This document shows, one piece after another, positions 20,304 through 39,876 of a stretch of DNA of 64,000 nucleotides; the stretch's first letter is position 1, and each line of letters opens with the position of its first letter. The notes under the pieces were generated by a model. The model worked only from the letters and a program-made list of their open reading frames with translations, ran no database searches and was not told the DNA's origin. The position numbers and the translations under genes are program-made. Source of the stretch: Streptomyces halobius (GTDB lineage: Bacteria; Actinomycetota; Actinomycetes; Streptomycetales; Streptomycetaceae); assembly GCF_023277745.1 (NCBI RefSeq), contig NZ_CP086322.1:3100001-3164000 (forward strand), read 5' to 3'.

Positions 20304-22739
20304 TTACGCGGCGGTTCTGGGCTGGCCGAAGATGTCTGAGGTACCCCCATGCACTGGGGTCCGTGACACCGCACGGCAGTCCGCAAGGTTCGCCAGCCCC
20401 CGGACGCCGTTCACCTTGGCCTCCCGCACGCCGGGGAAGGTCCGCAACGCGTCGTAGAAGCGGTTTCGGGTCATCGGGTGGCGGATGCCGCACTCCTCCG
20501 TCCACGTCTTGTAGCGCTCCCAGGTGTCCGACCGCGGGACCTGGGCGCCCTCCTGGACCACGTACTCCTCCCCGATGAACCCGGACAGGGGATGACTGGT
20601 GTCTCGGTAGTGCGCGGTTCGCCGCTCCACCGACTCCGGAAACTCCAGGCCCCGGCCCGCCGTGTACTCCCGGTACCAGGCCACGGCCCCGCGCACCGCC
20701 CATGCCGCGATGCCCTCCCGCTCCTGGCGGAGCGTGGCGGCCAGGTGCTTGTCCTCGCGGCCCCGGAAATCCTCGTTCCACGGCACGACGCGCACGCGTT
20801 GCCATAGGGCGGCGTCCGTGGCGTCCACGTCGGGGACGTAGTTGGTGTCCACCTGGACCAGGCACACTGGCCGGAACGTGATCTCGTCCCTCGCGTATAC
20901 GCCCCGGGCCGTGATCGTCTGGTCTCCGGTGACTGCTTTCATGAGCGCCTGATCCAATGGCATGTTGGCGGGCCACTCGGAGGAGATCACCAGGCGCCGG
21001 CCCCGCAGTCCCACCACGTCGGCGCGCGGCCCGCCGTTCTCCTTCCGGCGCTGGAACAGCGACGCGTCCGCCCGCTTGGTGGCTTCCCGGAACACCTCTT
21101 CCAGGGTGCTGGTGAACGTCGTCTTTCCGTTGGTTGTCGGCCCCACGTGCATTACGAAGATCCGTTCCACGCCGTACCCGGTGATGCCGTAGCCGGTAAG
21201 ACGCTGCAGAAAGGCCGGCATGTCCGGCGAGTGAGGGTGGCACTCCTCCAAGAACCGTTCCCAGCGCGGGGCTTGCGCGTCGGGGCGGTAGTCCACGTCC
21301 ACGAAGTAGGTGTTCAGGTCCGCCGGGTCGTGCGGCCGAGCCTGACCAGTCCGGAGGTCCACCACGGCATCCCGGAACGGGAGGAGGTTGGGGTCCGCAT
21401 CAAAACGGTCCGCCGTGGCGTACACACCGGGAATGGAGGCCAGCATCTCCACCATGCCCTTGACCTTGCTCGCTTCCTGGGAGCGCATGACGTGCTTGGA
21501 CAGCTTTTCAGGGTCGTGGCCGGACTCCTCCCCCATGGCGTTCACCATGGCGCGCACGTCCGCGTACAGAGCCTCCTTTGGCACGTGCCGCCAGTGCTTG
21601 CCCTGCCACTTGTAGACCCCGGCTCCCGGCACCATGCGCACATGTCCGCCGAGCTGGTGAAACAACCGCACGGCGTTCCCCAGGTCCGTAAGGGGGAGGG
21701 TGTCGGGAACCTGCGCCGTCTCCCCAGACGGAACATGTTCTGTCGCCTCCTGGTCCACAACGTGGAGCGGGGCACGGCGGACGGCCGCGTGGAGCTGCCC
21801 GGGGAAGGTGTCCGGGTCGCGGTGCCTCCAGTCGGTCAGGTCGTCCCCGGCGTGCGGGATCTCCAGACGCCGGACCATCACCCCGGCGCGAACCAGGGCG
21901 TCCGCAAGGGCGTTGGTAAACTGGGCTCCGGCGGTGTCGCGGTCCCCGGCCAGCACCACGTCCCGGTCCGCCAGCCCCCTGGCCAGCTCCTCCACCAGGG
22001 CGTCATTGCGGGCCAGGCCGGCCCCACGCACCGCCACGGCGTCGTACCCGACCCCCACGGCCGTCAACGCGTCGCCGGGGCCCTCGGTGACCAGGACCGT
22101 GTCAAACCCGCTGTGAGCGGTGAACACCCCGAACTTGGCCCATGCCGCGCCCTCCGGGGAGGTGATCGACAGCCACCGCGCCGGGCAGTGCCCCGTCAGG
22201 TCCCGGCCCTGGAGCCCGCGCGGACGGCCGCTGAAGTCGTGCAGGGGCACGGTGAGCCGCGCGTACTTCTGGTAGGCGGTGGAGCGGTAGGGGAACTTGT
22301 CGTCCTGGCCGGGGAAGTCCACGCCCAGGCCGAGGTCCACGGCCCGCTCCGGCTCCAGGCCGAAGCGTTCCACCACATAGTCCCGGGCCTCCGGGCGTTC
22401 CGGGTCCAGGAACGCCACGTTCGTGGTGTCCACGTACTGGGCCAGGGCGGCCAGGCACCCGGGGTCAAGGTCTCCGGGCTTCGGCTTGGCGGAGGCGTGC
22501 GCGCCGTCGCCGGGGGACCAGTCGAACAGGTCCGCTGACCGCATGCCCAGGGCCGCCAGGATGGCGTCCCGCTCGCACCCGGCCCAGCACCGCACCAACA
22601 GGCGCCCGTCTTCCTTGAGACGGAAGAACAGGCTGGGCCGGTGGTCGTCGTGCACAGGGCACGGGACCCCGTACTCCCCGCGCTCCTCGATGACCTCCGG
22701 GAAGCGGGCCAGGAACCGGGTCAGGTCCTTGTTCGGCAC
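20304..22739 (-). CDS. Phage primase-helicase (CHC2/TOPRIM plus D5/P4-type helicase)
   Basis: 811 residues. Zinc-binding primase start CPVHDDHRPSLFF and CWAGC (Cys27, His30, Cys51, Cys55). TOPRIM motifs are VLVTEGPGDALTA and VVLAGDRDTAGA. The C-terminal half is an SF3/D5-type helicase with Walker A HVGPTTNGKTTF (about 530) and Walker B-like RRLVISSEWPAN. It primes and unwinds at the phage fork and is partnered with the polymerase downstream. Two repeated elements are embedded: a palindrome at 21725-21746 in the linker between primase and helicase, and element B near the 3' end. Confidence 0.95.
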   Translation of the reverse strand: MPNKDLTRFLARFPEVIEERGEYGVPCPVHDDHRPSLFFRLKEDGRLLVRCWAGCERDAILAALGMRSADLFDWSPGDGAHASAKPKPGDLDPGCLAALAQYVDTTNVAFLDPERPEARDYVVERFGLEPERAVDLGLGVDFPGQDDKFPYRSTAYQKYARLTVPLHDFSGRPRGLQGRDLTGHCPARWLSITSPEGAAWAKFGVFTAHSGFDTVLVTEGPGDALTAVGVGYDAVAVRGAGLARNDALVEELARGLADRDVVLAGDRDTAGAQFTNALADALVRAGVMVRRLEIPHAGDDLTDWRHRDPDTFPGQLHAAVRRAPLHVVDQEATEHVPSGETAQVPDTLPLTDLGNAVRLFHQLGGHVRMVPGAGVYKWQGKHWRHVPKEALYADVRAMVNAMGEESGHDPEKLSKHVMRSQEASKVKGMVEMLASIPGVYATADRFDADPNLLPFRDAVVDLRTGQARPHDPADLNTYFVDVDYRPDAQAPRWERFLEECHPHSPDMPAFLQRLTGYGITGYGVERIFVMHVGPTTNGKTTFTSTLEEVFREATKRADASLFQRRKENGGPRADVVGLRGRRLVISSEWPANMPLDQALMKAVTGDQTITARGVYARDEITFRPVCLVQVDTNYVPDVDATDAALWQRVRVVPWNEDFRGREDKHLAATLRQEREGIAAWAVRGAVAWYREYTAGRGLEFPESVERRTAHYRDTSHPLSGFIGEEYVVQEGAQVPRSDTWERYKTWTEECGIRHPMTRNRFYDALRTFPGVREAKVNGVRGLANLADCRAVSRTPVHGGTSDIFGQPRTAA
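20348..20369 (-). promoter_or_regulatory. Early-region element, copy B
   Basis: Minus strand TGTCACGGACCCCAGTGCAT, one mismatch to consensus, inside the last 25 codons of the primase gene, 142 nt before the polymerase start. Confidence 0.7.
21725..21746. promoter_or_regulatory. Dispersed palindrome, copy 1 (imperfect)
   Basis: Plus strand CAGACGGAACATGTTCTGTC; one arm intact, three mismatches in the other. Encodes A-T-E-H-V-P-S in the primase-helicase linker. Confidence 0.7.
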
Positions 22740-22762
22740 GGGTTTTCTCTCCTCAACGCAAA

Positions 22763-22807
22763 GCGGGCGTGTCCGAACCCGTTCACTGGGGCCCGTGACA
22801 CGCCCGC
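22763..22807 (-). promoter_or_regulatory. Early-region element, copy C, within a terminator-like stem
   Basis: Element C (22781-22801, minus strand TGTCACGGGCCCCAGTGAAC) lies 41 nt before the primase start. An 11-bp stem GCGGGCGTGTC/GACACGCCCGC (22763-22773 with 22797-22807) encloses it and is followed by TTTGCG on the minus strand. Confidence 0.7.
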
Positions 22808-22824
22808 ACTGGGGAGGTCAGTGC

Positions 22825-23232
22825 TTACTGTGCGCGCCCGTCGGCCTCGCGGAACGTGGCCAGCACCTGGGCGAACGTCTCCAGGTCCATGACCGCGTAT
22901 CCGTCCCCGACCGGCCGCCGAGGCGCCTTGACGATGGCCACCCCGTACGGGTATCCGGCGTGCGCAGCTTCGCGGTTGGCCTGGCGTACATAGTCGGCCA
23001 GCCGGATACCCTTCTCCGCCTTGCACTCCAGGACGAACGGACGGGCGTGGAGGTCTCCCACGTCCCGGGCTCCGATCTGAGCCGGCCGTGTCACGTTGTC
23101 GGGGTCGTGCGGGTCCCGCCAAGGGTAGGCCGCATCCTTCCAGTGGTCCACGTACTGGCCTAGGACCACGTTCAGATAGTGCCGGACCTCCGTCTCCCAA
23201 CGGGTGCCCTTGGCCTTGTTCGGGTTGCTCAC
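22825..23232 (-). CDS. Hjc-like PD-(D/E)XK Holliday-junction resolvase
   Basis: 135 residues from GTG 23232. KAKGTRWETEVRHYL supplies the N-terminal Glu, then RDVGDL and FVLECKAEKGI form the D-(X)n-ExK core of the PD-(D/E)XK fold. Such proteins resolve branched recombination or replication intermediates before packaging. Overlaps the small membrane gene upstream by GTGA. Confidence 0.75.
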   Translation of the reverse strand: MSNPNKAKGTRWETEVRHYLNVVLGQYVDHWKDAAYPWRDPHDPDNVTRPAQIGARDVGDLHARPFVLECKAEKGIRLADYVRQANREAAHAGYPYGVAIVKAPRRPVGDGYAVMDLETFAQVLATFREADGRAQ

Positions 23233-23330
23233 CGGCGCCTCCGGCGGATGAGTCGGACCAGGAGTCCCAGGGCCAGGAGCTGAAAGAGGACCAAGGTCAG
23301 GGCGACGACCGCCAGCACTTGGAGGAGCAT
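23229..23330 (-). CDS. Tiny membrane protein
   Basis: 33 residues from ATG 23330: one hydrophobic helix (LLQVLAVVALTLVLFQLLAL) then RLIRRRRR. Start overlaps the stop of the gene upstream and stop overlaps the next start, so it is translationally coupled on both sides. Confidence 0.55.
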   Translation of the reverse strand: MLLQVLAVVALTLVLFQLLALGLLVRLIRRRRR

Positions 23331-23331
23331 G

Positions 23332-23613
23332 TCAGACACCTGCCAGCACCTCCCCCGGCACCGTCACGGCGACGTGTTCAGCCGCCACGGTCTCCACACG
23401 GAACGTGGACCGCTTAACCCAGCCGGACTCATTGCCGGTCGGCTTGACCTTCAGCATGGGGAATATGCGCCCCTTGTGCTGCTCGGTGTAGGTCCGCAGG
23501 ACCGTTGCCTCCACCATGCGCACGCTGTTGCCCCGGCGGGCCGCGTAGACCAGGGTGTCCCCCTCGCGGATCTCCTGGCCGGTGAAGTCGTGGATATGGC
23601 CGCGCTTGGCCAT
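23332..23613 (-). CDS. Small beta-rich phage protein
   Basis: 93 residues. GQEIREGDTLVYAARRGNSV has the look of a KOW/SH3-type barrel, followed by alternating strands (VRMVEATVLRTY, RIFPMLKVKPTG). No family assigned. In the replication/recombination operon. Confidence 0.6.
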   Translation of the reverse strand: MAKRGHIHDFTGQEIREGDTLVYAARRGNSVRMVEATVLRTYTEQHKGRIFPMLKVKPTGNESGWVKRSTFRVETVAAEHVAVTVPGEVLAGV

Positions 23614-23710
23614 GCTGCTCTCCTCTTGCTCTTGGTACAGAGACCGGCCAGGCGTCGCGGTTCGGGGCCTGGCCGGCCATAGGGGTGTCTGCCGGCCTCG
23701 CCGTGCGTGA

Positions 23711-24451
23711 TCAGAACGGGGCGGAATCCGCGGTGGCCTGAGACAGGGACGGAACGGCCGTGGCTGTCTCCGCCGGGGCGGGACCGTGGACTTTCAGCAC
23801 CGGCTTGCGGTAGGCCACGTCCACGCCGCTCTTGGTCTGGAACTCGACCAGCTCCAGAGAGAGCGTGCACAGGGCCGGGCCGCCGACGGCCTCCAGCTCC
23901 CGCCAGACGGATTCCAGAGACTTCATGAAATCCCAGGAGCCGGTCATCAGCCGGAACTTGCCCAGCTCCGGAGCATCATGGAGCCGAAATTCCACGCGCT
24001 GGTCGGGCTTCGGGCCTCGCTCTGCCTTGGCCGCTGCCTTGCGCTCCTGGAGCGTCTGAGGGCAGCCACACGGCTGGCCGTTACGCGGGTCTTCCTCGTC
24101 GGTGAACTCCACGCCGTCACAAACATGAATGGGTCGCCCGGTCATGCCGTAAAGCGCCATACGGAACGTCACGGCATCCGGGTCGTCCACGATCACCTTT
24201 ACGGCGTCCGCGTCAGTCAGCACCTCCAAGGAATCCTCCTTGGTCGTCTCCCACGCCTGGGGAGCACCGCCGTACAGCTCCGCGACGGCCTTGCCCACCT
24301 CCGGGTCACCGGTCGTGACCCTCCATGCCTTTAGGCCAACGAGGCGGTTGTTGAGCTTCTGCCCCGCCCTGAAACGGCCCACGTAGTCGCTGGCGAACGT
24401 CTTGGGGCGGGCGTTGGGGTCGGTGTCAAACACGCGGAGGGTGCGGGCCAC
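23711..24451 (-). CDS. Putative recombination directionality factor (phiC31 Gp3-like)
   Basis: 246 residues from GTG 24451 (AAGGAGAG, 9 nt). The N-terminus DYVGRFRAGQKLNNRLVGLK then WRVTTGDPEVGKAVAELYGG, the central QERKAAAKAERGPKPDQRVE, and the C-terminal TLSLELVEFQTKSGVDVAYR match what I recall of Gp3-type proteins of phiC31-like Streptomyces phages, which bind the serine integrase and switch it to excision. Length (phiC31 Gp3 is 244) agrees. Assignment is from memory of the family pattern. It shares the operon with recombination nucleases. Confidence 0.6.
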   Translation of the reverse strand: MARTLRVFDTDPNARPKTFASDYVGRFRAGQKLNNRLVGLKAWRVTTGDPEVGKAVAELYGGAPQAWETTKEDSLEVLTDADAVKVIVDDPDAVTFRMALYGMTGRPIHVCDGVEFTDEEDPRNGQPCGCPQTLQERKAAAKAERGPKPDQRVEFRLHDAPELGKFRLMTGSWDFMKSLESVWRELEAVGGPALCTLSLELVEFQTKSGVDVAYRKPVLKVHGPAPAETATAVPSLSQATADSAPF

Positions 24452-24496
24452 TGTGCTGGCTCTCCTTGGGAATTGCTGGGAAAGAGGCAGCGAAAA

Positions 24497-24520
24497 GGCC
24501 CGGCGTATGGCCGCCGGACC
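24497..24520 (-). terminator. Hairpin in the leader of the Gp3-like gene
   Basis: Minus strand GGTCCGGCG pairs with CGCCGGGCC (one mismatch) and is followed by TTTTCGC, a credible intrinsic terminator. It sits between element D and the start at 24451, so it could act as an attenuator. Confidence 0.65.
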
Positions 24521-24532
24521 TCTCGCTGTTTC

Positions 24533-24554
24533 CATGCACTGGGGCCCGTGACAC
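24533..24554 (-). promoter_or_regulatory. Early-region element, copy D
   Basis: Exact consensus TGTCACGGGCCCCAGTGCAT on the minus strand, 81 nt before the Gp3-like start, with a terminator-like hairpin between. Confidence 0.75.
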
Positions 24555-24566
24555 CGGCCCCCGCCG

Positions 24567-25364
24567 CTACGCCGCGCGGCGCTGCGTACCGGTCTCCACC
24601 TCCCCGCCCGAGGCCACCGGGCGCCCAATCACGCCCCGCTTGGTCCCGCGCTCCCAGTCGAAGACGGCCCGCAAGTGACGGAAGACCTGGAACAGCTCCG
24701 GCGTGTGGCGGACGGGGACCAGCTTCCAGCCCTCCGGGCGGACGTGGAGAACGGCCGCCGCGTCGATGGCCGGCACCGGTACGGATTCGCCCGTGTCGGC
24801 GCGGACGATGCGGTCTGCGTTCGCGTATGCGGTCAGCTGTAGGGCCAATTCCTCATGAACGCCGGAGCGGGTGGTCTTCCAGTCCAGGACCACCGTCTCC
24901 CCGCCGATGCGCGCGATGGCGTCAAACGACCCGGCGTAGTTGTGCCGATCGCTCCACACGGCATCTTCCAGGAACAGGAACTCCGGCTGGACCGTCTCCA
25001 GGAACTCCCGGAAGTGGCCGGCATAGGCCCGGAGATCCGGGTGAACGCGTGTCACGTCCTCGCCACGCGCCAGGCGCTCGAACACATCGTGGGCATCCGA
25101 CCCAATATCTGCCGCCTGTTTGGTCACCCGGCGCGGGGCGCCCTTCAGGTAGTCGATCGCTCCGGCGCGGTCGTTCATGGCCAGGCCCACCAGGGAGCCG
25201 ATGTTGTCCACGGCTGCCGTGGCCACCTCCTTGGCGGCCCAGAACTGAAGGAACCCCTTCGGGAGCATGGACAGGATGGAGGTCACACCGGGCGCTTTGG
25301 CCCCGGTCTCCGGGTCCACGTAGAACCGGCTGCCGGACCGGCTGATGGTGTTCAGTGCTGCCAC
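24567..25364 (-). CDS. RecB/Cas4-like PD-(D/E)XK nuclease
   Basis: 265 residues. GSFDAIARIGGETVVLDWKT provides the Asp and the D-x-K of a RecB-type nuclease core, followed by the ELALQLTAYA helix with the conserved Gln. The N-terminal APGVTSILSMLPKGFLQFWA is typical of phage RecB-like exonucleases. Probably processes DNA ends in recombination-dependent replication. Confidence 0.8.
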   Translation of the reverse strand: MAALNTISRSGSRFYVDPETGAKAPGVTSILSMLPKGFLQFWAAKEVATAAVDNIGSLVGLAMNDRAGAIDYLKGAPRRVTKQAADIGSDAHDVFERLARGEDVTRVHPDLRAYAGHFREFLETVQPEFLFLEDAVWSDRHNYAGSFDAIARIGGETVVLDWKTTRSGVHEELALQLTAYANADRIVRADTGESVPVPAIDAAAVLHVRPEGWKLVPVRHTPELFQVFRHLRAVFDWERGTKRGVIGRPVASGGEVETGTQRRAA

Positions 25365-25417
25365 GGGTCTCTCCGCTCGTCACGGGCCGCCAAGGGCCAC
25401 TCAGGTGCCTACGGCGG

Positions 25418-25439
25418 CATTCACCGGGGGACGTGACAG
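25418..25439 (-). promoter_or_regulatory. Early-region element, copy E (divergent)
   Basis: Minus strand TGTCACGTCCCCCGGTGAAT, 53 nt before the RecB-like start and immediately downstream of a long inverted repeat. Confidence 0.6.
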
Positions 25440-25448
25440 GCGGAGTCA

Positions 25449-25536
25449 GGGGGCAAGAAAAGTGACCTGGGGACCTTCTTTCTCTGTCCTTCACAAGTAG
25501 GGAAAAGAAGGACCCGAGGTCACTTTTCTTGCCCCC
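25449..25536. repeat. Long hairpin, copy 1
   Basis: A perfect 20-bp outer stem: GGGGGCAAGAAAAGTGACCT (25449-25468) with its exact complement at 25517-25536. Inside, CCTTCTTT pairs with AAAGAAGG to extend the helix past 30 bp. A related structure lies at 47261-47347. Confidence 0.9.
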
Positions 25537-25544
25537 AAAGACAG

Positions 25545-25579
25545 CAGGGGCCCCGTTCCGGAGTGGAACGGGACCCCTG
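25545..25579. terminator. GC hairpin
   Basis: CAGGGG-CCCGTTCC pairs with GGAACGGG-CCCCTG around a short loop. Next to the long hairpin and upstream of the RecB-like gene. Confidence 0.6.
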
Positions 25580-25693
25580 GCGGGAGAGCGACGGGCCGGT
25601 TACTCCTCCAGGCCCTTCAGCTCCCGGAGGAGCGCGTCCGCCTGGTCCCGAGCGGCCCGTCACTCTTTTTTTCTGCAAGTACAGAAGGGCGCC

Positions 25694-25879
25694 ATGGATA
25701 ATGCAGTCATGAGCGATAAGAAGCCCACGGCCCCTTACGGCATCGGCATGTCCATCGGCCTGGCGCTGGGCGTGGCCTGGGGTAGCCTTACGGATAACCT
25801 CGGCACCGGAATTGCCATCGGTGTTGGCCTGGGAGTGGCGTTGGATGCCCAGCGCGCCAGACATGGCAACGACAAGTGA
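25694..25879 (+). CDS. Small glycine-zipper membrane protein
   Basis: 61 residues from ATG 25694 (GAAGGGC just upstream). Two glycine-spaced segments, GIGMSIGLALGVAWG and GTGIAIGVGLGVALDA, form a glycine-zipper hairpin. It lies on the plus strand among leftward genes, so it has its own promoter and is probably an extra gene expressed in the lysogen. Function unknown. Confidence 0.65.
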   Translation: MDNAVMSDKKPTAPYGIGMSIGLALGVAWGSLTDNLGTGIAIGVGLGVALDAQRARHGNDK

Positions 25880-25906
25880 AACGAGTCCTAACCGCCTCTG
25901 CCTTTG

Positions 25907-26158
25907 TCATCGGCCGGTGCCGTCACCTGTCGAGTTCTCCAGCACGGTGGCCGGGTTGTACTTGGCCGCCACCTTCCGGGACGCGCCCTCGCCCAGGAAG
26001 AGGATCACCAGGAACGTGATCGCGTCCACGGCCTGGTCATTGACGGCCACGTCTGCCACGGCGGGAACGTAGTGGCCCACCAGGACCAGGAGCGCGCCGA
26101 GCGCGGTCCGTACCCGCACCGGGTTATCCCGGATGGCCTGGCGGATCAGGTCGAACAT
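25907..26158 (-). CDS. Holin-like membrane protein
   Basis: 83 residues. Two hydrophobic segments (TALGALLVLVGHYVPAVADV and AITFLVILFLGEGASR) and a polar tail, in the lysis region close to the endolysin. ATG 26158 directly follows the stop of the kinase gene (TGAATG). Holin assignment is by position and topology. Confidence 0.6.
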   Translation of the reverse strand: MFDLIRQAIRDNPVRVRTALGALLVLVGHYVPAVADVAVNDQAVDAITFLVILFLGEGASRKVAAKYNPATVLENSTGDGTGR

Positions 26159-26776
26159 TCAGTCTCCCAACTTGTCGATCAATGCGCGGACGCTGTCTTG
26201 GAGTTCGGCCAGCGTTCCGCCGTTGTGGAGCACGTGGTCCGGCGTCACGCCGTCCAGCTCCGTTTCCGAGTGGTGGTTTCCGGCATCGCCCTCCAGGCCG
26301 GCGCCCGGCCGCTCCACGCGGACAACCACGGCTCCCGCCTCTCGGAGGGCCGCCAGTTCATTGACATACCGCACGTCCGTCACGACACACGGCATGTTCC
26401 ATTCGGTGCCCTGGCGGGCCTGGGCCAGGACCGGGCGGACCCAAAATTCGGGGTCCTGGTCTCGGATGGCCTGGCCGTACTTCTGGAGGAGCCGCCGGAC
26501 CTCCACCAGGGCCTTGGCGCCCTCCCATCCGCCGTGATCCTCCAGGGCGTCCGTCAAGCGGTAGTCCTCGTAACAGCAGCACGAGGTCACCAGGGGGTTA
26601 AGGCGGATCAGTGCGGCTTTCAGTTCGTCGGCGAACGCCAGCCGGCTGTAGGCAGACTGATGGCCGAGGATGGCGGCCACGGTGTCCTTGCCGGAGCGGG
26701 CCTTACCAATGAGTGCGACGTGGGGACGGGACAGGGGACCCTCCAGGTAGAGCGCGTTCCGGCATGGTGATCTCAT
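26159..26776 (-). CDS. Phage deoxynucleoside monophosphate kinase
   Basis: 205 residues. P-loop ALIGKARSGKDTVAAIL (about 22-38), then LAFADELKAALI as in T4-type and phiC31-type dNMP kinases, WVRPVLAQ and VVTDVRYVNE further on. Supplies dNDPs for replication. The ATG at 26776 lies at the very end of element F with no Shine-Dalgarno, implying leaderless or unusual initiation. Confidence 0.8.
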   Translation of the reverse strand: MRSPCRNALYLEGPLSRPHVALIGKARSGKDTVAAILGHQSAYSRLAFADELKAALIRLNPLVTSCCCYEDYRLTDALEDHGGWEGAKALVEVRRLLQKYGQAIRDQDPEFWVRPVLAQARQGTEWNMPCVVTDVRYVNELAALREAGAVVVRVERPGAGLEGDAGNHHSETELDGVTPDHVLHNGGTLAELQDSVRALIDKLGD

Positions 26777-26795
26777 GCACTGGGGGGCGTTACGC
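26774..26795 (-). promoter_or_regulatory. Early-region element, copy F (divergent)
   Basis: Minus strand CGTAACGCCCCCCAGTGCAT; its last bases contain the start codon of the dNMP kinase. Confidence 0.55.
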
Positions 26796-27032: not shown

Positions 27033-27033
27033 C

Positions 27034-28065: not shown

Positions 28066-28091
28066 GCCGTCCTCCTGTTGGCATGCGAAGA

Positions 28092-28114
28092 CCCCGCCGG
28101 TATGCCCGACGGGG
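28092..28114. terminator. Hairpin between tail-tip and lysis genes
   Basis: CCCCGCCGG, 4-nt loop, then CCCGACGGGG (one mismatch). It separates the 28141 gene from the endolysin gene. Confidence 0.5.
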
Positions 28115-31938: not shown

Positions 31939-34626
31939 TTACCCCCTTGCCTTCATGCGCCATTCCAGTTCGCGGGCCACCTGACCAGGGGTGAGGTTGC
32001 CCGCGTTGAAGTTCTCGATGGTGAGTGCGGCTGTCGGTCCGGCGCCACTTCGGGCAGACGGAACATGTTCCGTCTGGACGCGCACCGGCTCCCCGACCAT
32101 GGCCGGGATATCGCCGGTGATGCCGCCCAACTGCCGCTTAAGCTGGGGCACCTGGTCCTGAATGCCCCGCATGAAACCCTTCAGGAGAAGGCGACCGTTC
32201 GGAGTGAGGATGCGGGCGTCCAGCTCCGCCGGACCCTTCCAGTCCGGCAGCATGGACGTGATGCTGGACAGCTTGTCTCGCAGGCTGCCGATCATGGACG
32301 TGACGCCGTTGATGAAGCCGCGGATCAGGCTGGCTCCGGCGTTCCAGAGCGTGGAGCCAAGGTTGCCCAGGGCGTCACGCGCACGGCCGGGAAGGCCCCG
32401 GATCGTGGCCACGGCGGACGAGATTCCGGAGGAGATCCGGTCACCCATGGACGACAGTCCGGCGCGGGCCGCCGAAACGACGTTGGAGCCCATGTCCTTG
32501 ACCGCCGACCAGGCGCGGGAGGCCATGTTGCCGAAGAACCCGACCACGGCACCGACGCCGGAGGACACGATGGAACCGATCTTGGAGAAGATCGTCCCGA
32601 AGAACGAAGCCAGCCCGGACAGAAGGGACTTGGCGGCGTTCAGCGCTCCGGAGAAGTCGCCGCGGAACAGCTTGACGATCATGTTGATCGCGGGCACGAC
32701 GATGGACGTGATGTACTTCGCGGCCAGCTCGGCGAGCACGCCCGCGATCTTGCCGACGATCTTGATCACGGCCGTGATGATCGGCATCAGGGCCTGGAGG
32801 GCCCCGGCCAAGAGCGTGCCCAGGGCGGTGATCAAGGGGCCGCAGGCGGCCAGGAGTTGACCGAGCGCGGACCCGATGGTGGCCAGGGCGGGAGCCAAGG
32901 CGCTGACCAGTTGCCCGACCAAATCCCCCAAAATTGGGGCAAGTTTGGCCACAACGGACAGGATGGGGCCGACGATCGCCGGGAGCTGCGCTAGGACCGG
33001 CTTCAGGGCCGTGAGCAGCGCAGACGCGATCTGAGCGACCAGGCCGCCGACGATCTCCAGCGTGGGGCCGAGGACGCCCGCCAGTTGGACCGCGAGCTGG
33101 GCCGCGATCGGCAGGATGGCGGCCAGGGCCTGGGAGGCGACCTTGACGACGGGCGCCAGTCCGGCACCCAAACTCTGGGCGAGCTGGACGAACGCGGGAG
33201 TCAGGGTCTGGACCGCGTTCTGAATCGGCCCTGACAACGTTGTTACCAACGCGTGGACCAGCGGCAGGGCAGCCTTCAGGGCAGCCCCCAGGACCTGGGA
33301 GACGGCCTTTCCGACGGCCGAGACGGTCTCGAACAGGGCCCGGAACGTCTCCTGGGCCTCCGGTGTCGCCGTGACCTTGGCGGCCGTAGCCGCCAGGTCT
33401 GAGAGGACTTGGAGGGCTCCGCCTCCGGCGTCGGCCGCTGCCCCCAGGACGTTGCCCAGGGTCTTGCCGACATTGGCCAGGACGCCGCCGAACTGCTTGG
33501 CGACTCCCACCGCCGCCTCTATGGACGACTGCATGGCGCCCGACTCGAACGCCGTAGTCATCTTGGCCCGGAGCCGGTCCAGGCCCCGGCCCATGGAGGC
33601 CGTCATCCGCTCGAACGTCGGGGTGGCAGCCGCGCCGAGCTGGACCAGGCCCTGGAGGACCGTTCCCGGCAGGCCCCGCATGTTCTTAAGGCCCCGGGTT
33701 GCGCCGCTCAGCGCCTTGCCCAGCGTGCCGTCCTCGGCCAGGGTCCGCGCCGTGCCGGCCGCATCCTTGGCCATGGCGTTGAGCGCGGACGCGGTGCCGG
33801 TGAGCTGGGTCTTCAGGACCGGCAGGATGGAGTTTGCCGTCTTGGTGAGCGTGTCGCCCAGGCCCTGGAAAAGCGTCCCCTGGACGGAACGTTTCACCTC
33901 GTCCCAGGCAGGCGCCAGCGCCTTGGCCTGGGTCACGAAATCCTGTGCAGCGGGGGCCAGTTTGGCCATGGCCTCCGCGTCGCCCGACAGTGCATCGGAG
34001 ACGCCGGACATGCCGACCTTGAGCGCGACCCCGGCCGATGCCAGGGCCAAGACGGCCGGGGCCGCCACACCGGCCGCCGGGGCCATGGACGCAATGGACG
34101 AGGTCAGGCCCGCCACCGCCGGGACGGAGGAGGCCATAGTGGCCAACTTGCCGACGGACCCCACCAGGGACAGCACACCCCGGGCCGCGCCGCCCGACCC
34201 ACCCCCGAGAGACGAGACGTCTCTGCTCAGCGCGGTAAGGGCGTTGCGGTCCGCGTCCACGCGGGCCGGGAGGGCCAGCGGGGGCGTGATGTGCGCCAGC
34301 TGGCGACGGAGCCGGAGCACTTCCCGTTCGTTGACCTCCAGGCGGACGCCGAGGGCGGCGTTCGCGCCCTGGAGGCGTTCGCGGAGCCTGTCGCGGAAGG
34401 CGGACAGGTCCGGGTCCACGGTGACGCGGACCCGTGCCCGTATTCGTGCGAGCTGGGTATTCAGCCGCTCCCGGAATCCGGTCAGGTCTGGGACGGCCTG
34501 GACCTGGACGCGGGCCCGGCGCTCGATGCGGTCTAGGTACCGCTGGAGACTGGTGGCGAAATTCGCCGTGTTCGGCAGAACGCGGATTGCCAGCCGCCCG
34601 GCCTCGCGGCCTCCGGGCCCGGCCAT
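31939..34626 (-). CDS. Tail tape-measure protein
   Basis: 895 residues, the longest phage gene. N-terminal coiled-coil region with repeated blocks (LTGFRERLNTQLARIRARVR, LSAFRDRLRERLQ), then long Ala/Leu/Val-rich hydrophobic helices (about 240-620), then a Gly/Ser/Trp region (GALNAAKSLLSGLASFFGTI). It determines tail length and helps DNA ejection. Near the C-terminus the palindrome at 32055-32076 encodes QTEHVPS in a nonconserved linker. Confidence 0.95.
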   Translation of the reverse strand: MAGPGGREAGRLAIRVLPNTANFATSLQRYLDRIERRARVQVQAVPDLTGFRERLNTQLARIRARVRVTVDPDLSAFRDRLRERLQGANAALGVRLEVNEREVLRLRRQLAHITPPLALPARVDADRNALTALSRDVSSLGGGSGGAARGVLSLVGSVGKLATMASSVPAVAGLTSSIASMAPAAGVAAPAVLALASAGVALKVGMSGVSDALSGDAEAMAKLAPAAQDFVTQAKALAPAWDEVKRSVQGTLFQGLGDTLTKTANSILPVLKTQLTGTASALNAMAKDAAGTARTLAEDGTLGKALSGATRGLKNMRGLPGTVLQGLVQLGAAATPTFERMTASMGRGLDRLRAKMTTAFESGAMQSSIEAAVGVAKQFGGVLANVGKTLGNVLGAAADAGGGALQVLSDLAATAAKVTATPEAQETFRALFETVSAVGKAVSQVLGAALKAALPLVHALVTTLSGPIQNAVQTLTPAFVQLAQSLGAGLAPVVKVASQALAAILPIAAQLAVQLAGVLGPTLEIVGGLVAQIASALLTALKPVLAQLPAIVGPILSVVAKLAPILGDLVGQLVSALAPALATIGSALGQLLAACGPLITALGTLLAGALQALMPIITAVIKIVGKIAGVLAELAAKYITSIVVPAINMIVKLFRGDFSGALNAAKSLLSGLASFFGTIFSKIGSIVSSGVGAVVGFFGNMASRAWSAVKDMGSNVVSAARAGLSSMGDRISSGISSAVATIRGLPGRARDALGNLGSTLWNAGASLIRGFINGVTSMIGSLRDKLSSITSMLPDWKGPAELDARILTPNGRLLLKGFMRGIQDQVPQLKRQLGGITGDIPAMVGEPVRVQTEHVPSARSGAGPTAALTIENFNAGNLTPGQVARELEWRMKARG
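32055..32076. promoter_or_regulatory. Dispersed palindrome, copy 2 (perfect)
   Basis: AGACGGAACATGTTCCGTCT flanked by C and G gives a perfect 22-bp palindrome, within the tape-measure gene, coding for Q-T-E-H-V-P-S on the minus strand. Confidence 0.8.
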
Positions 34627-34629
34627 GAA

Positions 34630-35037
34630 CTACCCCCTGGGTGCAATGGGCTTGGCCAAGGGGTGTGTGGACAGGTCAAGGCGCGCACGCTTGGGCTTGT
34701 CCGCCTTGACCTGTGGAACGTTGACGGGAGTCGGCTCCCGTTTGAGTCGTCCGCCGGAGACGCGGACGTTATTGGCGTCGGCGAACCGCACGGCGTTCAG
34801 GAGCTGGGCCAGGAGGTGGGTTTGGACCGTCCACCCCCGGTGTTCGGGCCCGCCGGCCAACGATGCGGCCAGGGCGGAGTCCGGTGGTAGGTGCTCAGAC
34901 AGTTGCCAGGCCCGGCGGGGCGCCAGCGTGCCTCTCCACACGTCGGCCAGATCCAGGCCGTAGAACCGTTGGAGGTCCGCCCGCAGCGCCCCGCCGTGGC
35001 CTTGGTCGATTAGCTGTCCGAGCGCGGAGCTTCCCCC
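34630..35037 (-). CDS. Tail assembly chaperone, frameshifted (gpGT-like) extension
   Basis: An open frame without its own good start that continues the previous chaperone in the -1 frame. At the slippery GGGGGAA (35031-35037) the shifted frame continues GSSALGQLIDQGHGGALRAD, then LQRFYGLDLADVWRGTL, a typical second chaperone domain. Produced only by a -1 slip, giving a longer fusion needed in small amounts for tail assembly. Confidence 0.75.
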   Translation of the reverse strand, partial: GGSSALGQLIDQGHGGALRADLQRFYGLDLADVWRGTLAPRRAWQLSEHLPPDSALAASLAGGPEHRGWTVQTHLLAQLLNAVRFADANNVRVSGGRLKREPTPVNVPQVKADKPKRARLDLSTHPLAKPIAPRG

Positions 35038-35354
35038 ACCTGGGTCTCCTCCTGCCAGTCACCGACCGTGCGGACGAACACGGCCAGGGGCCAGTCCTCC
35101 ATCTCCGTCTTCAGCGCGGCGGGGTCGTCGGCGACTAGGAGGAGAAGGTCCCGGATCTGCGGGACCAACTCCTCCAGCTCCTCCGCGCCGGTCTCGCCGA
35201 ACTTGCCGAGGATGACCCGGGCGGCCTTCAGGCCCTCGTCGGGAAGCATGAGGATATTGCGGAGCTGGACCGTCTTACCGGCCCGTGTCTCCAGGTCCAG
35301 GCCCGCGTACTCCGCCGCAGCCTCCGCCATCATCTCCGCGCAAGAAAGTGCCAA
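35010..35354 (-). CDS. Tail assembly chaperone (gpG-like)
   Basis: 114 residues from TTG 35354 (GGGGA 6 nt upstream). Helical, with AGKTVQLRNILMLPDEGLKA and AEELEELVPQIRDLLLLVAD. Lies between the major tail gene and the tape measure, the expected position. Its last codons contain the -1 slippery sequence. Confidence 0.8.
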   Translation of the reverse strand: MALSCAEMMAEAAAEYAGLDLETRAGKTVQLRNILMLPDEGLKAARVILGKFGETGAEELEELVPQIRDLLLLVADDPAALKTEMEDWPLAVFVRTVGDWQEETQVGEAPRSDS

Positions 35355-35401
35355 GGTGTGTCCCCAAAGTCGTTGGTGGTGCGGTCCCTTGGGAATGCAG
35401 A

Positions 35402-35433
35402 CCTCCCGTCCGGGGGACCGTCCGGACGGGAGG
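35402..35433 (-). terminator. Strong hairpin after the major tail gene
   Basis: CCTCCCGTCCGG (35402-35413) pairs perfectly with CCGGACGGGAGG (35422-35433), 8-nt loop. Would lower expression of genes beyond the abundant tail tube gene. Confidence 0.75.
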
Positions 35434-35478
35434 GCGGTCACGGAGCGCTCAGCCGGCGCTCTACGCAACGTGAGGGCG

Positions 35479-36066
35479 TTACTCGCCCTCGCCGCCCGGG
35501 TCGGGCGGGGCCGGGGCCTCGATCTGGGCCCATTCACCGATGGCGTTGCCGATCAGGCTGGAGCCCAGGAACGTGGCCTTGATCGGGAACGACATGAAGT
35601 CGGTGGCCGACAGGCCCACGGCGTCCGATCCCAGGAGGGAGACGCGCGGATGCCACAGCGGCAGGTAGTTGGTGCCGTCCACCAGGACCACCAAGAGCGC
35701 CTTGGTCTGCGGCAGAGGCGTGGCGGGGATACGGAACGACTTGTCCGCCTGCACAGCCCCAGGGCCCGCGCCGAAGTAGAGCTGATAGGTCAGCGCCGTG
35801 GCCTGAATGGACTTGATGGTGACGGAGTACGTCACGTCCGGTGTGGTGGCGCGGAGCTTGGCATTCTGCCAACTTCCCTTGACCTCGGGGTCTTCGCCAT
35901 CGCGGCCGAACTCCGGCAGGTCATCAAGGGACGTATGGCCGATGGACTCCCAACCGGCCCCCGGGGCCCGCGGGTCCAAAATTTCCTTGGGCTTGGCCGT
36001 GTCCGGGTCTGCGATGTAGATGTAACCGCCCGCCGGGACTATTGCGGCGTCGTCAATCAGGGCCAA
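35479..36066 (-). CDS. Major tail protein
   Basis: 195 residues. GGYIYIADPDTAKPKEI, GWESIGHTSLDDLPEFGRDG and DVTYSVTIKSIQATALTYQL are typical of tail-tube proteins in Streptomyces siphoviruses. Followed by a strong terminator and preceded by the tail terminator gene. Confidence 0.85.
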   Translation of the reverse strand: MALIDDAAIVPAGGYIYIADPDTAKPKEILDPRAPGAGWESIGHTSLDDLPEFGRDGEDPEVKGSWQNAKLRATTPDVTYSVTIKSIQATALTYQLYFGAGPGAVQADKSFRIPATPLPQTKALLVVLVDGTNYLPLWHPRVSLLGSDAVGLSATDFMSFPIKATFLGSSLIGNAIGEWAQIEAPAPPDPGGEGE

Positions 36067-36088
36067 AGGGGCCGCCTCCAGGGGTAAG

Positions 36089-36496
36089 TCAGATGGGCCG
36101 CGCGGTCACGCGGTACGTGGCCTGGAACCGGAAGAGGTCCGGTCCGGCCGTCGGTTCGCCGGTCCGGATCTCCGCCGGACCGCTCACGTCTGCAAAGCGG
36201 CTCAAGTAGCCGTCGGTGCCCCGGCACTGTCCCCGGCACGCGTCGGCCAGGACCACGCGCGCAACGCGGGCCAGTCGGGACGCTTCCCGCCGGTCCGTGG
36301 CCGCTGCCTGTACGTCGATCAGCGCCACGTCGATGCCGAGCGGGTTGGAGGAGCCTCCCGGCACCCGGCGGGCCACGATCAGCGGGAGTCGGTCGGCCCA
36401 GTCATCGGGCCAGGCCACACGGACCGTGGCGCCACTCAGGCCCTCGCGGAGGGCGTCGACCACCAGGGCGTCCACGTCGGGGAGTACCGGCCTCAT
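36089..36496 (-). CDS. Tail terminator/completion protein
   Basis: 135 residues from ATG 36496, overlapping the previous stop (ATGA). DRLPLIVARRVPGGSSNPLG and IDVALIDVQAAATDRREASR match the pattern of phage tail terminator proteins located just before the major tail gene. Confidence 0.7.
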   Translation of the reverse strand: MRPVLPDVDALVVDALREGLSGATVRVAWPDDWADRLPLIVARRVPGGSSNPLGIDVALIDVQAAATDRREASRLARVARVVLADACRGQCRGTDGYLSRFADVSGPAEIRTGEPTAGPDLFRFQATYRVTARPI

Positions 36497-36774
36497 AGGC
36501 CCGCCTCTATCGCGTGGATACCCGGCACCCAACGCCCGTTGGGCGCCACGTGGCCGTAGTTGATCGCGAACACCGCCGGGTCCTCCAAGGTCACCGTGGA
36601 GTCTGTGCGGTTCGTGCGGACGGTCATGCCGGAGGCAAGGGCCCCGGTGTGGCGGTGCGCTTCGACGACCGCCCGCACCCGGTCCGCCCGGTCCTCCAGC
36701 TCATCCGCCACGGCGTCCCGGACGCCGGGCAGGTGCGCCACGATGCTGTCCAGGTGGGGCTTCACCTCTGCCAC
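36493..36774 (-). CDS. HK97 gp10-like (DUF5403-type) protein
   Basis: 93 residues. A helical N-terminus (VKPHLDSIVAHLPGVRDAVA) and the ending VFAINYGHVAPNGRWVPGIH, characteristic of the small HK97-gp10-like neck/tail proteins. Coupled to the next gene. Confidence 0.75.
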   Translation of the reverse strand: MAEVKPHLDSIVAHLPGVRDAVADELEDRADRVRAVVEAHRHTGALASGMTVRTNRTDSTVTLEDPAVFAINYGHVAPNGRWVPGIHAIEAGL

Positions 36775-36775
36775 G

Positions 36776-37099
36776 TCATCCCCGCTTTCGGATCGTTGCC
36801 ACGTCGTGGGCCAGGCGCCGGGAGCCGCCGAAGTGCTGGGGCTCCCCGACCACGGCCCAGACGTGCCCGGCCCACTCGACGCGGGACCAGGGCCCGGCCG
36901 GGAGCGACCGCGAATAGACGCGGTACTCCGTCCCGGTCAGGTATCCCGGCTCCCCGCTTTCGTCCGTGGTGGCCGGGAGTACGCGGGCCCGGAGCGTCAC
37001 CGGCTGGCCGGGGCCCGGTTTAGTGCCGCCGTAGCCGTCGTCCACGTCCACCGTGGGGTAGACCGTGACCTGATCCGGGCCGGAGTCCAAGAGGTTCAC
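36776..37099 (-). CDS. Head-tail stopper/adaptor protein
   Basis: 107 residues. DQVTVYPTVDVDDGYGGTKP and EWAGHVWAVVGEPQHFGGSR are typical of head closure (gp7/stopper-like) proteins. Its GTG start overlaps the connector gene's stop. Confidence 0.7.
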   Translation of the reverse strand: MNLLDSGPDQVTVYPTVDVDDGYGGTKPGPGQPVTLRARVLPATTDESGEPGYLTGTEYRVYSRSLPAGPWSRVEWAGHVWAVVGEPQHFGGSRRLAHDVATIRKRG

Positions 37100-37467
37100 A
37101 GCGAACCCCCCAGAGACTCCACCGGCACCGCAAACACGCCGGACGCGCCGACGGCCGCGCGGATCAACCGGGCTTCACCGTCGGTGAGGCCGGCGCCAAC
37201 GGGCAGTGATGCCGGAAGCTGGTACTGGTAGGCGCCTTGCAGCTCCGACCGGTACCCCTCCGGATTCCTCACCCGCCGCTCCGCAGCCGCCAGGGCGACG
37301 GCCACGACGATGGCCGGGGCCTTGGCCGGGTCGGGCCAGGCATCTCCGTACGCACGCACGGTGGCGGAGGCGTCCGCCAACGCCGCCTGCGCCTGCGCCC
37401 GCTCCTCTCCGACCAGCTCCCGCCCCAGTCGCTGTTCCAGGGCCGCTATGTCGGCCAGGGGAGTCAT
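37096..37467 (-). CDS. Head-tail connector (gp6-like) protein
   Basis: 123 residues, helical. ADIAALEQRLGRELVGEERA and AQAALADASATVRAYGD are typical of adaptor proteins next to the capsid gene. Only 8 bp after the capsid stop. Confidence 0.75.
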   Translation of the reverse strand: MTPLADIAALEQRLGRELVGEERAQAQAALADASATVRAYGDAWPDPAKAPAIVVAVALAAAERRVRNPEGYRSELQGAYQYQLPASLPVGAGLTDGEARLIRAAVGASGVFAVPVESLGGSL

Positions 37468-37475
37468 GCGGCCCC

Positions 37476-38399
37476 CTACTTGTCGGCCGGGGGCTTCGGT
37501 GGGGTCGGCATGTCCAGGCGGACCGCGCGGACCAGCTTCTTAGCGCTGCCGACCTTGTCCGTCATGACGTTGTATCCGGCGTAGACGTTCAGGATGGAGC
37601 GGTCCCGCAGCTTGGCCGCGTCGTAGTCGCGCACCCAGCGCATGGACAGGCCGTTGTAGGACTGGCTGGATCCGCTGGTGACACCGGCCGGAATGGCCGG
37701 GGCGCGGGTAGCCAGCACGAAGGCGGACGGGATGAACGCGTATGCGGCGCGCGGGTTGATGGCGTTGGATACCACCAGGTCGAACCCGGCCAGCCGGCCC
37801 AGGGTCGCCGAGCGGAGGGCCGAGTCCGAGCCGGACTTGGACACGTCGTTGATGCGGCCGGACTTCAGCAGGGCGGTTTCCACGTCCGCGCCCATCAGGA
37901 TTGTGCGGCCCTCGGTGGGGACGTTTGCCTTGTTGAGCGTGGCGCGGGCGTCCACGATGCCCAGCCACGGGTCCGTCTCGTCCACGGTGACGGTGTTGGT
38001 GTAGTTGGCGCTCTCGATCATCGACGCCACGCCTGTGTCAATCGCCTTGGCCACGGCGTTGACCTGGGGCTGGAGAACCTGGGAACCGAAGTCCCGGATG
38101 TCCAGCGTTAGTTCCTCATCGGTGACCGCGATCGCCGAATAGATGTCCTTGTTGAGCTGGACCGTGGTGTAGTCCTCCGCCAGCTCGTCCAGGACGATGT
38201 CCGAGCTGCGGTCGTTGCGCCACTCGTATTCGCGGGCTGTGATGGTCGCCGGAATCCGAATCGTGACCGTGTCGTTCTTGGCGCCGGTGAAGTCGAACCC
38301 GCCGTTCGTCCACACCAGACGCGACAGAACCATTTCCCGCTCAAGAAGACCAAGGGCCGTAGCCGCGATCTTCTCGGACTTCAGAAAGCTGTTAGCCAT
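37476..38399 (-). CDS. Major capsid protein
   Basis: 307 residues. MANSFLKSEKIAATALGLLE at the N-terminus, SDIVLDELAEDYTTVQLNKD, and FDLVVSNAINPRAAYAFIPS near the C-terminus match the P22-coat/HK97-fold capsid proteins found in Streptomyces phages. Placed between scaffold and connector genes, although a plus-strand lipoprotein gene now separates it from the scaffold. Confidence 0.85.
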   Translation of the reverse strand: MANSFLKSEKIAATALGLLEREMVLSRLVWTNGGFDFTGAKNDTVTIRIPATITAREYEWRNDRSSDIVLDELAEDYTTVQLNKDIYSAIAVTDEELTLDIRDFGSQVLQPQVNAVAKAIDTGVASMIESANYTNTVTVDETDPWLGIVDARATLNKANVPTEGRTILMGADVETALLKSGRINDVSKSGSDSALRSATLGRLAGFDLVVSNAINPRAAYAFIPSAFVLATRAPAIPAGVTSGSSQSYNGLSMRWVRDYDAAKLRDRSILNVYAGYNVMTDKVGSAKKLVRAVRLDMPTPPKPPADK

Positions 38400-38737
38400 G
38401 TGCTCCGCTCAGGGCTGGGGCCCCGGGCCAGCACGCAGCACAACCACCAAGGGCCCTTGGACATGAACCCTTGGTTTTTCTTCTTACGCGTTGAATTAGC
38501 GGCACTCTTATTGCCGGCGGCTGGCCAGCCGTGACGTTGTCGGCGTTCCCCCTTTTGGCGGGGGCGGTATCACTCGCTCAGGTGGCGGACAGTCGCGAAT
38601 TAGTGAATCTCCCGCGTCGCTGCCTATGACGTGGTAACTGCCGGGCAGGGCGCATCCGAGGGCGCCCGGCCGCCTCAGAGCGACTGACGCGGGTGGACTT
38701 CGCACATGGTCGACACACATCCCCCAGGAGAAGAAAC
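38400..38737. other. Gap between capsid gene and divergent lipoprotein gene
   Basis: 338 bp with the terminator above and a further hairpin (GGGCGC/GCGCCC near 38648-38672). Must contain the lipoprotein promoter and possibly a late promoter for the capsid. No clear consensus boxes seen. Confidence 0.5.
38446..38479 (+). terminator. Intrinsic terminator reading rightward, upstream of the capsid gene
   Basis: Plus strand ACCAAGGG, 14-nt loop, CCCTTGGT, then TTTTCTTCTT. Its orientation protects the lipoprotein gene from rightward read-through. The leftward message would carry no T-run. Confidence 0.65.
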
Positions 38738-39226
38738 ATGCCTACGACCATTCACCGTTCCGTGTCGGCCGCCGTGGCCGCGATCACGATGCCAGCCGCA
38801 CTGACAGGCTGTTCAGCGGACGCCGAAGGCTCACCCGCCGACAACTCACCCGCCATGTGCTACGTCGACTGGGAGTTCACAGCACACGATGTGGCTCAGG
38901 GCAACAACCAGGCCAGACTCTACGCCAACTATTCGGGGGACGGCCTCGATTCCTCAAAGACACCCAATGAGCATTTCGGCAGGCACCAGAAATATTCAAA
39001 AGTAGGAAACTTCAAGTGCTCCGACGCAGCGAAAGCCTCACACTTCTATGTGTACTTGCTTAATCCGCGAGGCGATGGCAAATGGGGACTTGAGAAGATC
39101 AAGGCGGACATCCGCTTGCACAACGGTAATGATATTGTGCGCACTGTCACATTCACAAGCCCCGTGAAGGACGGATACTATCGCTGGAAGGATTGGCGCA
39201 CATTCCCTTTCGACGGCTCCAAATAG
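38738..39226 (+). CDS. Prophage lipoprotein
   Basis: 162 residues from ATG 38738 (AGGAG 8 nt upstream). Signal peptide with lipobox: VAAITMPAALTGCSADAEG, Cys at about residue 24. The mature part is polar and has a different, lower-GC codon use toward the 3' end. Plus strand inside the leftward structural operon, so probably expressed in the lysogen. Phage lipoproteins often block superinfection, but no similarity is recognised here. Confidence 0.75.
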   Translation: MPTTIHRSVSAAVAAITMPAALTGCSADAEGSPADNSPAMCYVDWEFTAHDVAQGNNQARLYANYSGDGLDSSKTPNEHFGRHQKYSKVGNFKCSDAAKASHFYVYLLNPRGDGKWGLEKIKADIRLHNGNDIVRTVTFTSPVKDGYYRWKDWRTFPFDGSK

Positions 39227-39366
39227 CGTGACCTAATTAGGCGTTCCTGCCGAGGGTCAACCCGTTTAGCCATGCGCACCTTCGGGGAGAGCGCGGCCCA
39301 GCCGCAACCGAGGAAACCGAGGAAGTGTCGCACCCTGCCGATAATCCCCACGTAGGGACCGCGACA

Positions 39367-39876
39367 TTACCGGCGGGCGCGTGGAATGCTCGCGGCCAGC
39401 TCCCCCGGATCGCTCGGGCTCGGAGTAGCCGAAGGGTCCAGGCCACCCCGGCCCACGCCATCTCCACGGTTGTGGAACAGCTCCGCCAGCGCCTTGGCGT
39501 CCGCTTCCCGGGTGTCGTCGTCAGCACCGAAGATCCGGGCCGCCAGCGCGTCCGGAAGGCTGTACTTGCGGGCCAGGCGCTCCCGCTGGAGTTCCGTTTC
39601 CAGCTCCGCCGCGCGGTCGGCCACCGTCTGGTACTCCTCCGGCGTCTTGGCCGCCTTCAGGGCCTCCGCCGTCTCCCGCGCCTTGACCCGGTAACGGGCT
39701 GCCTGGTCGCGGGCGGTCTTCAGCTCCGCGCGGAGGGCGTCGGCGTCCAGCTCCTGGCCGTCGTCCTGGCCCTCCGCTTCCGGCGTCTCCGCCTGGGCAA
39801 GGGCCCCCTTGCCGTCGTCAGACGGAACATGTTCCGTCTGGGAGTCCGTCGGGGTCGGGGTCGGGTTCTCCGCCAT
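39367..39876 (-). CDS. Capsid scaffold protein
   Basis: 169 residues from ATG 39876. Acidic, with a long coiled coil (LRAELKTARDQAARYRVKAR, YQTVADRAAELETELQRERL) and a polar C-terminus, as in phage scaffolds. The N-terminal region carries QTEHVPS, encoded by the palindrome at 39819-39840. Confidence 0.8.
   Translation of the reverse strand: MAENPTPTPTDSQTEHVPSDDGKGALAQAETPEAEGQDDGQELDADALRAELKTARDQAARYRVKARETAEALKAAKTPEEYQTVADRAAELETELQRERLARKYSLPDALAARIFGADDDTREADAKALAELFHNRGDGVGRGGLDPSATPSPSDPGELAASIPRARR
39819..39840. promoter_or_regulatory. Dispersed palindrome, copy 3 (perfect)
   Basis: AGACGGAACATGTTCCGTCT with flanking C/G, identical to copy 2 over 22 bp, inside the scaffold gene 14 codons after its start region. 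Confidence 0.8.

Follow-up and report, generated by a model that had tools for sequence, protein, structure and literature searches.

What is the reason for the presence of one 22-bp palindrome inside three different genes of a single Streptomyces prophage? We addressed this question for a stretch of 64,000 nucleotides of Streptomyces halobius (assembly GCF_023277745.1, contig NZ_CP086322.1, positions 3,100,001 to 3,164,000), hereafter the window, whose prophage carries the palindrome in the genes for a DNA primase/D5 helicase, a tail tape measure protein and a head scaffolding protein. Comparison with related phages suggests, with a probability that we put at roughly 0.65, that the palindromes serve as binding sites in a dispersed-operator repression system of phiC31-related actinophages (the Attoomi group), and that the copies in the window have been orphaned.

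The 22-mer CAGACGGAACATGTTCCGTCTG is a perfect palindrome at 32055-32076, near the 3' end of the tape measure gene (31939..34626, minus strand, phrog_305), and at 39819-39840, near the 5' end of the scaffold gene (39367..39876, minus strand, phrog_233). It recurs with 3 mismatches at 21725-21746 in the primase gene (20304..22739, minus strand, phrog_6088; about 80% identity with Attoomi gp33); there, the inner 18-mer GACGGAACATGTTCTGTC has 1 mismatch against a perfect palindrome, and GAC/GTC is again found on both arms. The 20-mer AGACGGAACATGTTCCGTCT has 0 mismatches at 32056-32075 and 39820-39839 and 2 at 21726-21745. When we ran the search with up to 3 mismatches proposed in an earlier reading of the sequence alone (the sequence-only reading), these were its three matches in the window, against 0.00 expected from 100 dinucleotide shuffles. 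The three sites are also the only exact GAACATGTTC cores within the 64 kb, and the two perfect copies the only gap-free palindromes with arms of 11 in the window. The mismatch scan and translation thus confirmed the palindrome positions given by that reading, as well as the peptide T-E-H-V-P-S, which is read from the minus strand at 3/3 sites and preceded by Q (scaffold, tape measure) or A (primase). Its description of the placement as linker-like was fair, since the scaffold site is close to the N-terminus of its protein, the tape measure site precedes the stop codon by about 40 codons, and the primase site separates the Toprim and D5_N domains (Toprim_2 217-301, D5_N 359-500). GTT accounts for 5.7% of Val codons and TCT for 5.1% of Ser codons; taking the peptide as given, the string GAA-CAT-GTT-CCG has a probability of 0.0017 from codon usage.

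Searches of the genus covered 392 genomes each time, apparently the same draw. With up to 1 mismatch the inner 18-mer was found in 0/391 other genomes, the window's own genome alone being positive; together with the shuffles, this rules out a chance origin of the palindrome. The host genome, a single 9.24-Mb contig, contains a second (sister) prophage (about 5.77-5.81 Mb), whose scaffold site is perfect and identical to that of the window and whose tape measure site has two mismatches. A third, broken scaffold remnant at 1412451-1412773 (about 1.4126 Mb) bears the degenerate palindrome CAGAACATGTTCTG. In 257 Gb of genome_contigs the exact 18-mer occurred in 9 stretches, scattered among taxa and close to the random expectation of about 4, and it was not found in viral_contigs, so that a widespread mobile palindrome was ruled out. 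Five viral contigs with the A:T pattern (see below) were set aside on G+C content alone (46-60% in the stretches examined). A literature search found no paper with both GGAACATGTTCC and Streptomyces, and at the level of titles and abstracts no description of the palindrome or of the protein gp25 introduced below.

The networks in relatives are larger. Counts of the GAACATGTTC core were 5 in the Streptomyces phage Attoomi, 7 in the prophage G392, and 8, 8 and 9 in the prophages G408, G409 and G410, which are more distant (major capsid identity about 60%). The reversed control pattern gave 0 in all 15 records searched; the scans of G409 and of two relatives poor in sites, G405 and G406, had gaps of 14, 80 and 872 bases, respectively. 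These five site-rich phages all encode a homologue of Attoomi gp25, and in them the exact core is present in the scaffold, tape measure and primase genes without exception (15/15 genes). The same three genes of six relatives lacking gp25 have it in 6/18 cases (window 3, sister prophage 2, prophage G394 1); this comparison counts genes rather than cores, and four further genes of the 18 contain a decayed site with a score of at least 10. Attoomi has 3 cores in the scaffold, tape measure and primase genes and 2 between genes, one of them about 124 bp upstream of the sigma gene. A site lies 124-140 bp upstream of the sigma protein match in five relatives; none was found upstream of the sigma gene of the window. 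The first gene of the late region (HNH 53) has a site upstream in 4/5 gp25-bearing phages, and in one, G392, a site precedes gp24-gp25 within a terminator-like stem that runs into T-rich sequence. The scaffold and primase sites occupy the same alignment column across clades. The tape measure site is found in the same C-terminal linker, within a segment of about 30% identity. In the window prophage, scaffold identity with Attoomi is 58% and the C-terminal segment of the tape measure protein is only 31% identical to that of Attoomi, and the site is present nonetheless. A further element, TTCGAACA followed by CGATTC or CGAATC, is shared upstream of the sigma gene by Attoomi, G392 and G409, and is perhaps the site of a second regulator.

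Is the DNA or the encoded peptide under selection? Between clades, the outer base pair of the palindrome changes on both arms together, giving three dialects that we denote T:A (GTC..GAC, mainly Attoomi, G392 and G394), C:G (CCG..CGG, G408-410) and A:T (GAC..GTC, window). The peptide tracks the DNA, reading S-E-H-V-P-T, P-E-H-V-P-D, P-E-H-V-P-A or T-E-H-V-P-S. We examined symmetry in 37 sites chosen by their exact core, for which core conservation is by construction. Position ±8 was symmetric in 33/37 sites, compared to a mean of 20.3 with shuffled right arms (33 was reached in 0/5000 shuffles), and ±9 more weakly so, in 22/37 against 14.0 (p 0.0008), homologous sites not being independent in these statistics; at ±10 no symmetry signal was detected (15/37 against 14.1). 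Since relatives keep the palindrome while the peptide changes, and since intergenic copies exist upstream of sigma and late genes, it is the DNA, and not the peptide, that relatives conserve. In this respect the sequence-only reading, which had proposed a DNA-level site for a dimeric phage regulator, dispersed and in part placed inside genes, is borne out by the relatives.

Which protein might bind these sites? Four regulators of the window prophage had been nominated. The XRE/DUF5753 regulator (12182..13021, plus strand, phrog_9908) has no match at E 1e-5 in Attoomi or G392, which bear 5 and 7 sites. The TetR-family regulator (16208..17038, minus strand) matches the sister prophage and G406 only, the latter having 0 sites. 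The open reading frame at 17724, labelled MarR, gave no Pfam hit and no match in ten other phages. The phage sigma factor (14221..15171, minus strand), a homologue of Attoomi gp35, is present in 11/11 phages, with or without sites. On their distribution among phages, all four were rejected as binders. Some observations on these genes stand apart from the question of binding. The XRE/DUF5753 protein is 94% identical to the versions of G408 and G410, an otherwise distant clade, and we therefore consider that this gene was recently exchanged. The proteins of the TetR module are nearly identical between the window and the sister prophage, and a 25-bp inverted repeat, ATAAGCGCATAAGCAATGCGCTTAT, at 17423-17447 upstream of the TetR gene, also present in the sister prophage, is likely an operator or terminator of this module.

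When the distribution of 52 Attoomi genes was compared with that of the sites, only genes 24 and 25 were present in 5/5 site-rich phages and absent in 6/6 relatives with 0-3 sites. Attoomi gp25 (344 aa), annotated in its record only as a hypothetical protein, has an N-terminal GntR-type winged helix; its structural model has a mean pLDDT (predicted local distance difference test score) of 76, and fold searches gave weak matches, the best at E 2.5e-3 to GntR regulators in PDB, with an uninformative C-terminal part. In Attoomi and G392 the gene is located after a deoxynucleoside monophosphate kinase and before a homologue of phiC31 gp1 or an exonuclease, like the repressor gene c of phiC31 and the putative immunity repressor gene of phage Samy; no homologue of the kinase was detected in G408-410. 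The part of the Samy study that deals with this gene reports high expression in all conditions tested (PMC11302927). The gp24-gp25 region spans 2.1-2.2 kb in the five gp25-bearing phages, against 584 bp in the gap between the gene 23 and gene 26 homologues of the window (25365..25948). A protein search returned 32 relatives of gp25, many of them named GntR family transcriptional regulator, and a sixth phage assembly (2811995052), in fragments, contained gp25 and four C:G sites. With the best few candidates per genome scored, gp25 was found in 1/392 genomes, G298, which is also the 1/392 genome with the T:A 18-mer; the palindrome is situated about 330 bp upstream of this lone gp25 gene (C15:708966-710315; L061, L154). 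The surrounding 20 kb yielded no other Attoomi gene apart from an HNH fragment, and this gp25 is possibly a captured immunity gene. A further search, covering 376 relatives and run without a positive control, found no gp25.

The N-terminus of gp25 is not the same in all phages. In G408-410 it consists of a basic tail and an Lsr2-type DNA-binding domain (PF23359, E 6.4e-8 for G409, with which the other two align), and beyond it the alignment with other gp25 proteins shows about 40% identity. In one relative, P0032, the alignment shows a basic tail but neither of the two heads. The GGAACATGTTCC core is common to both gp25 clades, and the outer pair differs. It is tempting to speculate, from the sequences of these two clades, that gp25 represents a repressor family with interchangeable heads, in which a shared helical C-terminal part would read GGAACATGTTCC and the GntR (T:A) or Lsr2-type (C:G) heads would read the outer pairs as immunity dialects, while operators in three essential genes would persist as fossils after loss of the repressor; we regard this as a tentative proposal, with the odds somewhat against it.

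The neighbouring gp24 (L022:19269-19811 in Attoomi) is SprT-like (phrog_6361) and adjoins gp25; a homologue adjoins the putative repressor in Samy. A role as a protease removing the repressor was rejected, the HExxH motif being missing in 6/6 aligned sequences (HxATH or HDAAH), and because of this gp24 is probably no active protease. A weak match to gp24 (38%) was seen at 58632-58925 of the window, beyond the part that is collinear with the other phages.

If the system functions as we propose, a dimeric repressor of the gp25 family would bind GGAACATGTTCC and its outer base pairs at 5-9 places per phage. We infer that gp25 would act in this way as an immunity repressor and block transcription. 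At the intergenic copies, upstream of the sigma gene, of late genes and in one phage of gp24-gp25, initiation would be blocked, and the copies within scaffold, tape measure and primase genes, being part of long transcription units, would act as elongation roadblocks in lysogens. The window prophage would descend from a phage with an A:T-dialect system, having since lost gp25 and the intergenic sites, and the three intragenic sites would survive because coding DNA changes slowly.

The closest known parallel is phiC31, which likewise has many near-identical short palindromes over its early and late regions, the conserved inverted repeats (CIRs). The phiC31 repressor c binds the CIRs. Its gene occupies the same slot as that of gp25 in Attoomi and G392. 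The CIR sequence TACTCACGTGAGTA is present in 15 copies in phiC31, compared to 5-9 sites of another sequence per gp25-bearing phage and only 3 in the window. In phiC31 14/15 copies are outside annotated genes, in contrast to the three intragenic sites kept across the Attoomi group: all three window sites are intragenic, and in the five relatives the scaffold, tape measure and primase genes account for 3 of the 5, 7, 8, 8 and 9 sites, respectively. The slot is the only match between gp25 and c, and no homology was detected (BLASTP E 0.96, hhalign probability 0.5). The sequence-only reading had also drawn a parallel to the stoperators of phage L5. The dispersal of sites agrees with this: passages of PMC6550527 describe stoperators of Cluster A phages as dispersed repressor sites with a consensus varying between subclusters. 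The geometry does not, for in the relevant passages of PMC9283540 the L5 sites are 13-bp, asymmetric and oriented with transcription, numbering more than 20 in promoters and short intergenic spaces with monomer binding predicted, whereas the sites in the window and its relatives are palindromic, 5-9 in number per gp25-bearing phage, three of them intragenic. Cluster O mycobacteriophages have a dispersed 17-bp palindrome, TGTTCGGNNNCCGAACA, about one third of whose copies are in coding regions, and the portion of PMC4351075 devoted to it suggests a dimeric regulator, its function being unknown. These palindromes are likewise partly intragenic, but differ in sequence, and for the system described here a candidate binder is proposed.

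Are the window sites still served by a repressor? Cognate gp25 is present in the same genome in the five site-rich phages, but was not found in that of the window. A six-frame profile search detected no gp25 in the window (including the 25365..25948 gap), the sister prophage, G394, G404, G405 or G406, and searches of the whole host genome gave weak matches only, mostly to the generic winged helix or the Lsr2-like part. Since no gp25 was found in the prophage or in the host genome, the window sites are probably orphaned. Intact intergenic sites were not found in the window clade. A single intergenic candidate, in decayed form, follows gene 40 of the sister prophage (score 12.8 against a shuffled maximum of 5.7), at a place where Attoomi and G392 have intact sites. 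Where gp25 is absent, the three genes show a gradation from intact sites (the six listed above), through decayed ones (in the scaffold gene of G404, the tape measure genes of G394 and G405 and the primase gene of G405), to sites that are weak or escape detection. No replacement system was apparent in the window clade, in that no other palindrome had at least 4 exact copies (half-sites of 6-8, spacers of 0-12).

A different regulator of the window and sister clade could still read the A:T dialect and repress via intragenic sites only. The perfect 22 bp of the scaffold and tape measure sites, the GAC/GTC on both primase arms and the identity of the sister scaffold site would fit such continued use. 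However, apart from the missing gp25, no open reading frame of the window follows the site distribution (the comparison covered frames of at least 60 aa with starts in 5000-18400 and 44500-53000), the primase site and one arm of the tape measure dialect are gone from the sister prophage, and no site is near any window regulator. We therefore consider continued use unlikely, and read the window sites as most likely orphaned operator/roadblock sites of a gp25-type repressor.

Several findings weigh against this reading of the palindromes. The A:T dialect of the window, with two perfect sites and a third near-perfect one, is unusually clean for relics; if the sites are orphaned, this symmetry implies that the ancestor must have had a repressor of A:T preference, and no gp25 with an A:T dialect was found. 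G405, which lacks gp25, has a decayed A:T tape measure site. The distribution of gp24 is identical to that of gp25. Attoomi and G408-410 have no intact site upstream of gp24-gp25, so that autoregulation of gp25 is not general, and the lone gp25 of G298 has a single site. The tape measure sites are some residues apart between clades and do not fall in one alignment column. Symmetry at ±6 is found in only 4/12 sites of the T:A clade. Finally, the sample is small, with two gp25-bearing clades, and the genomic surroundings are known for few of the 32 gp25 relatives.

The palindromes might instead serve DNA organisation, such as nucleoid-like silencing, partition or packaging. Their dispersal over late and early regions would suit this, as would the Lsr2-type head of one gp25 clade. 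We find it improbable, given that sites precede the sigma match by 124-140 bp in five phages and also precede HNH 53 in 4/5, and that gp25 is located in the repressor's slot in Attoomi and G392. Selection on the peptide T-E-H-V-P-S, for example as a protease or interaction motif in a linker, would account for the shared frame in 3/3 genes and for EHVP at 15/15 intragenic sites of gp25-bearing phages. The sequence-only reading had named as its counter-case relatives that keep the peptide with synonymous changes breaking the palindrome; this is found in the G405 tape measure, where T-E-H-V-P-S is retained and CAT has become CAC, and nearly so in the G404 scaffold (EHVP retained, GAA to GAG), both without gp25. 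Against a selected peptide, the flanking residues vary (S..T, P..D, P..A) with DNA symmetry largely intact, the intergenic copies are non-coding, the motif is absent from the G405 and G406 scaffolds, and in the G405 primase it has decayed to E-P-V-P-T; we give this explanation very little credence. Equally little can be given to an RNA hairpin (attenuator or processing site). In its favour, inspection shows that a short stem closed by a CATG loop could form, and the G392 site upstream of gp24 lies in its terminator-like, T-followed stem. Against it, A stands opposite C at ±6 in 4/12 T:A sites, breaking the RNA pair, and the loop does not vary in any base at the 15 intragenic positions.

Two further observations concern the structural genes of these prophages. 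In the window TerL (minus strand) is encoded in two frames, 44485-43955 and 43950-42865, with the shift at 43950-43955 corresponding to Attoomi residue 179. The sister prophage and G394 have the same shift, and the frame is continuous in G405 and Attoomi. A split near residue 81 is found in G406, L073 and L078. Conservation of the halves points to programmed shifting or to scars left by elements. In G406 (L068), the protease-scaffold-capsid and adaptor-to-gene-11 segments occur in tandem twice at 6081-12699, either by duplication or as an assembly artefact.

Dispersed operators, and palindromes that are partly intragenic, were already known; the interest of the present system lies in a candidate repressor, its two heads, three site dialects and a fossil series. 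Dispersed palindromes are now tied to a candidate repressor previously recorded as a hypothetical protein, and the candidate operators have been retained within three structural and replication genes even as identity in scaffold and tape measure fell to about 50%. The Attoomi group offers a natural gradation, with intact networks at one end and, in phages without the repressor, fossils at the other, and the proposed roadblock role of operators in actinophage coding sequence is directly testable with the isolated phage Attoomi.

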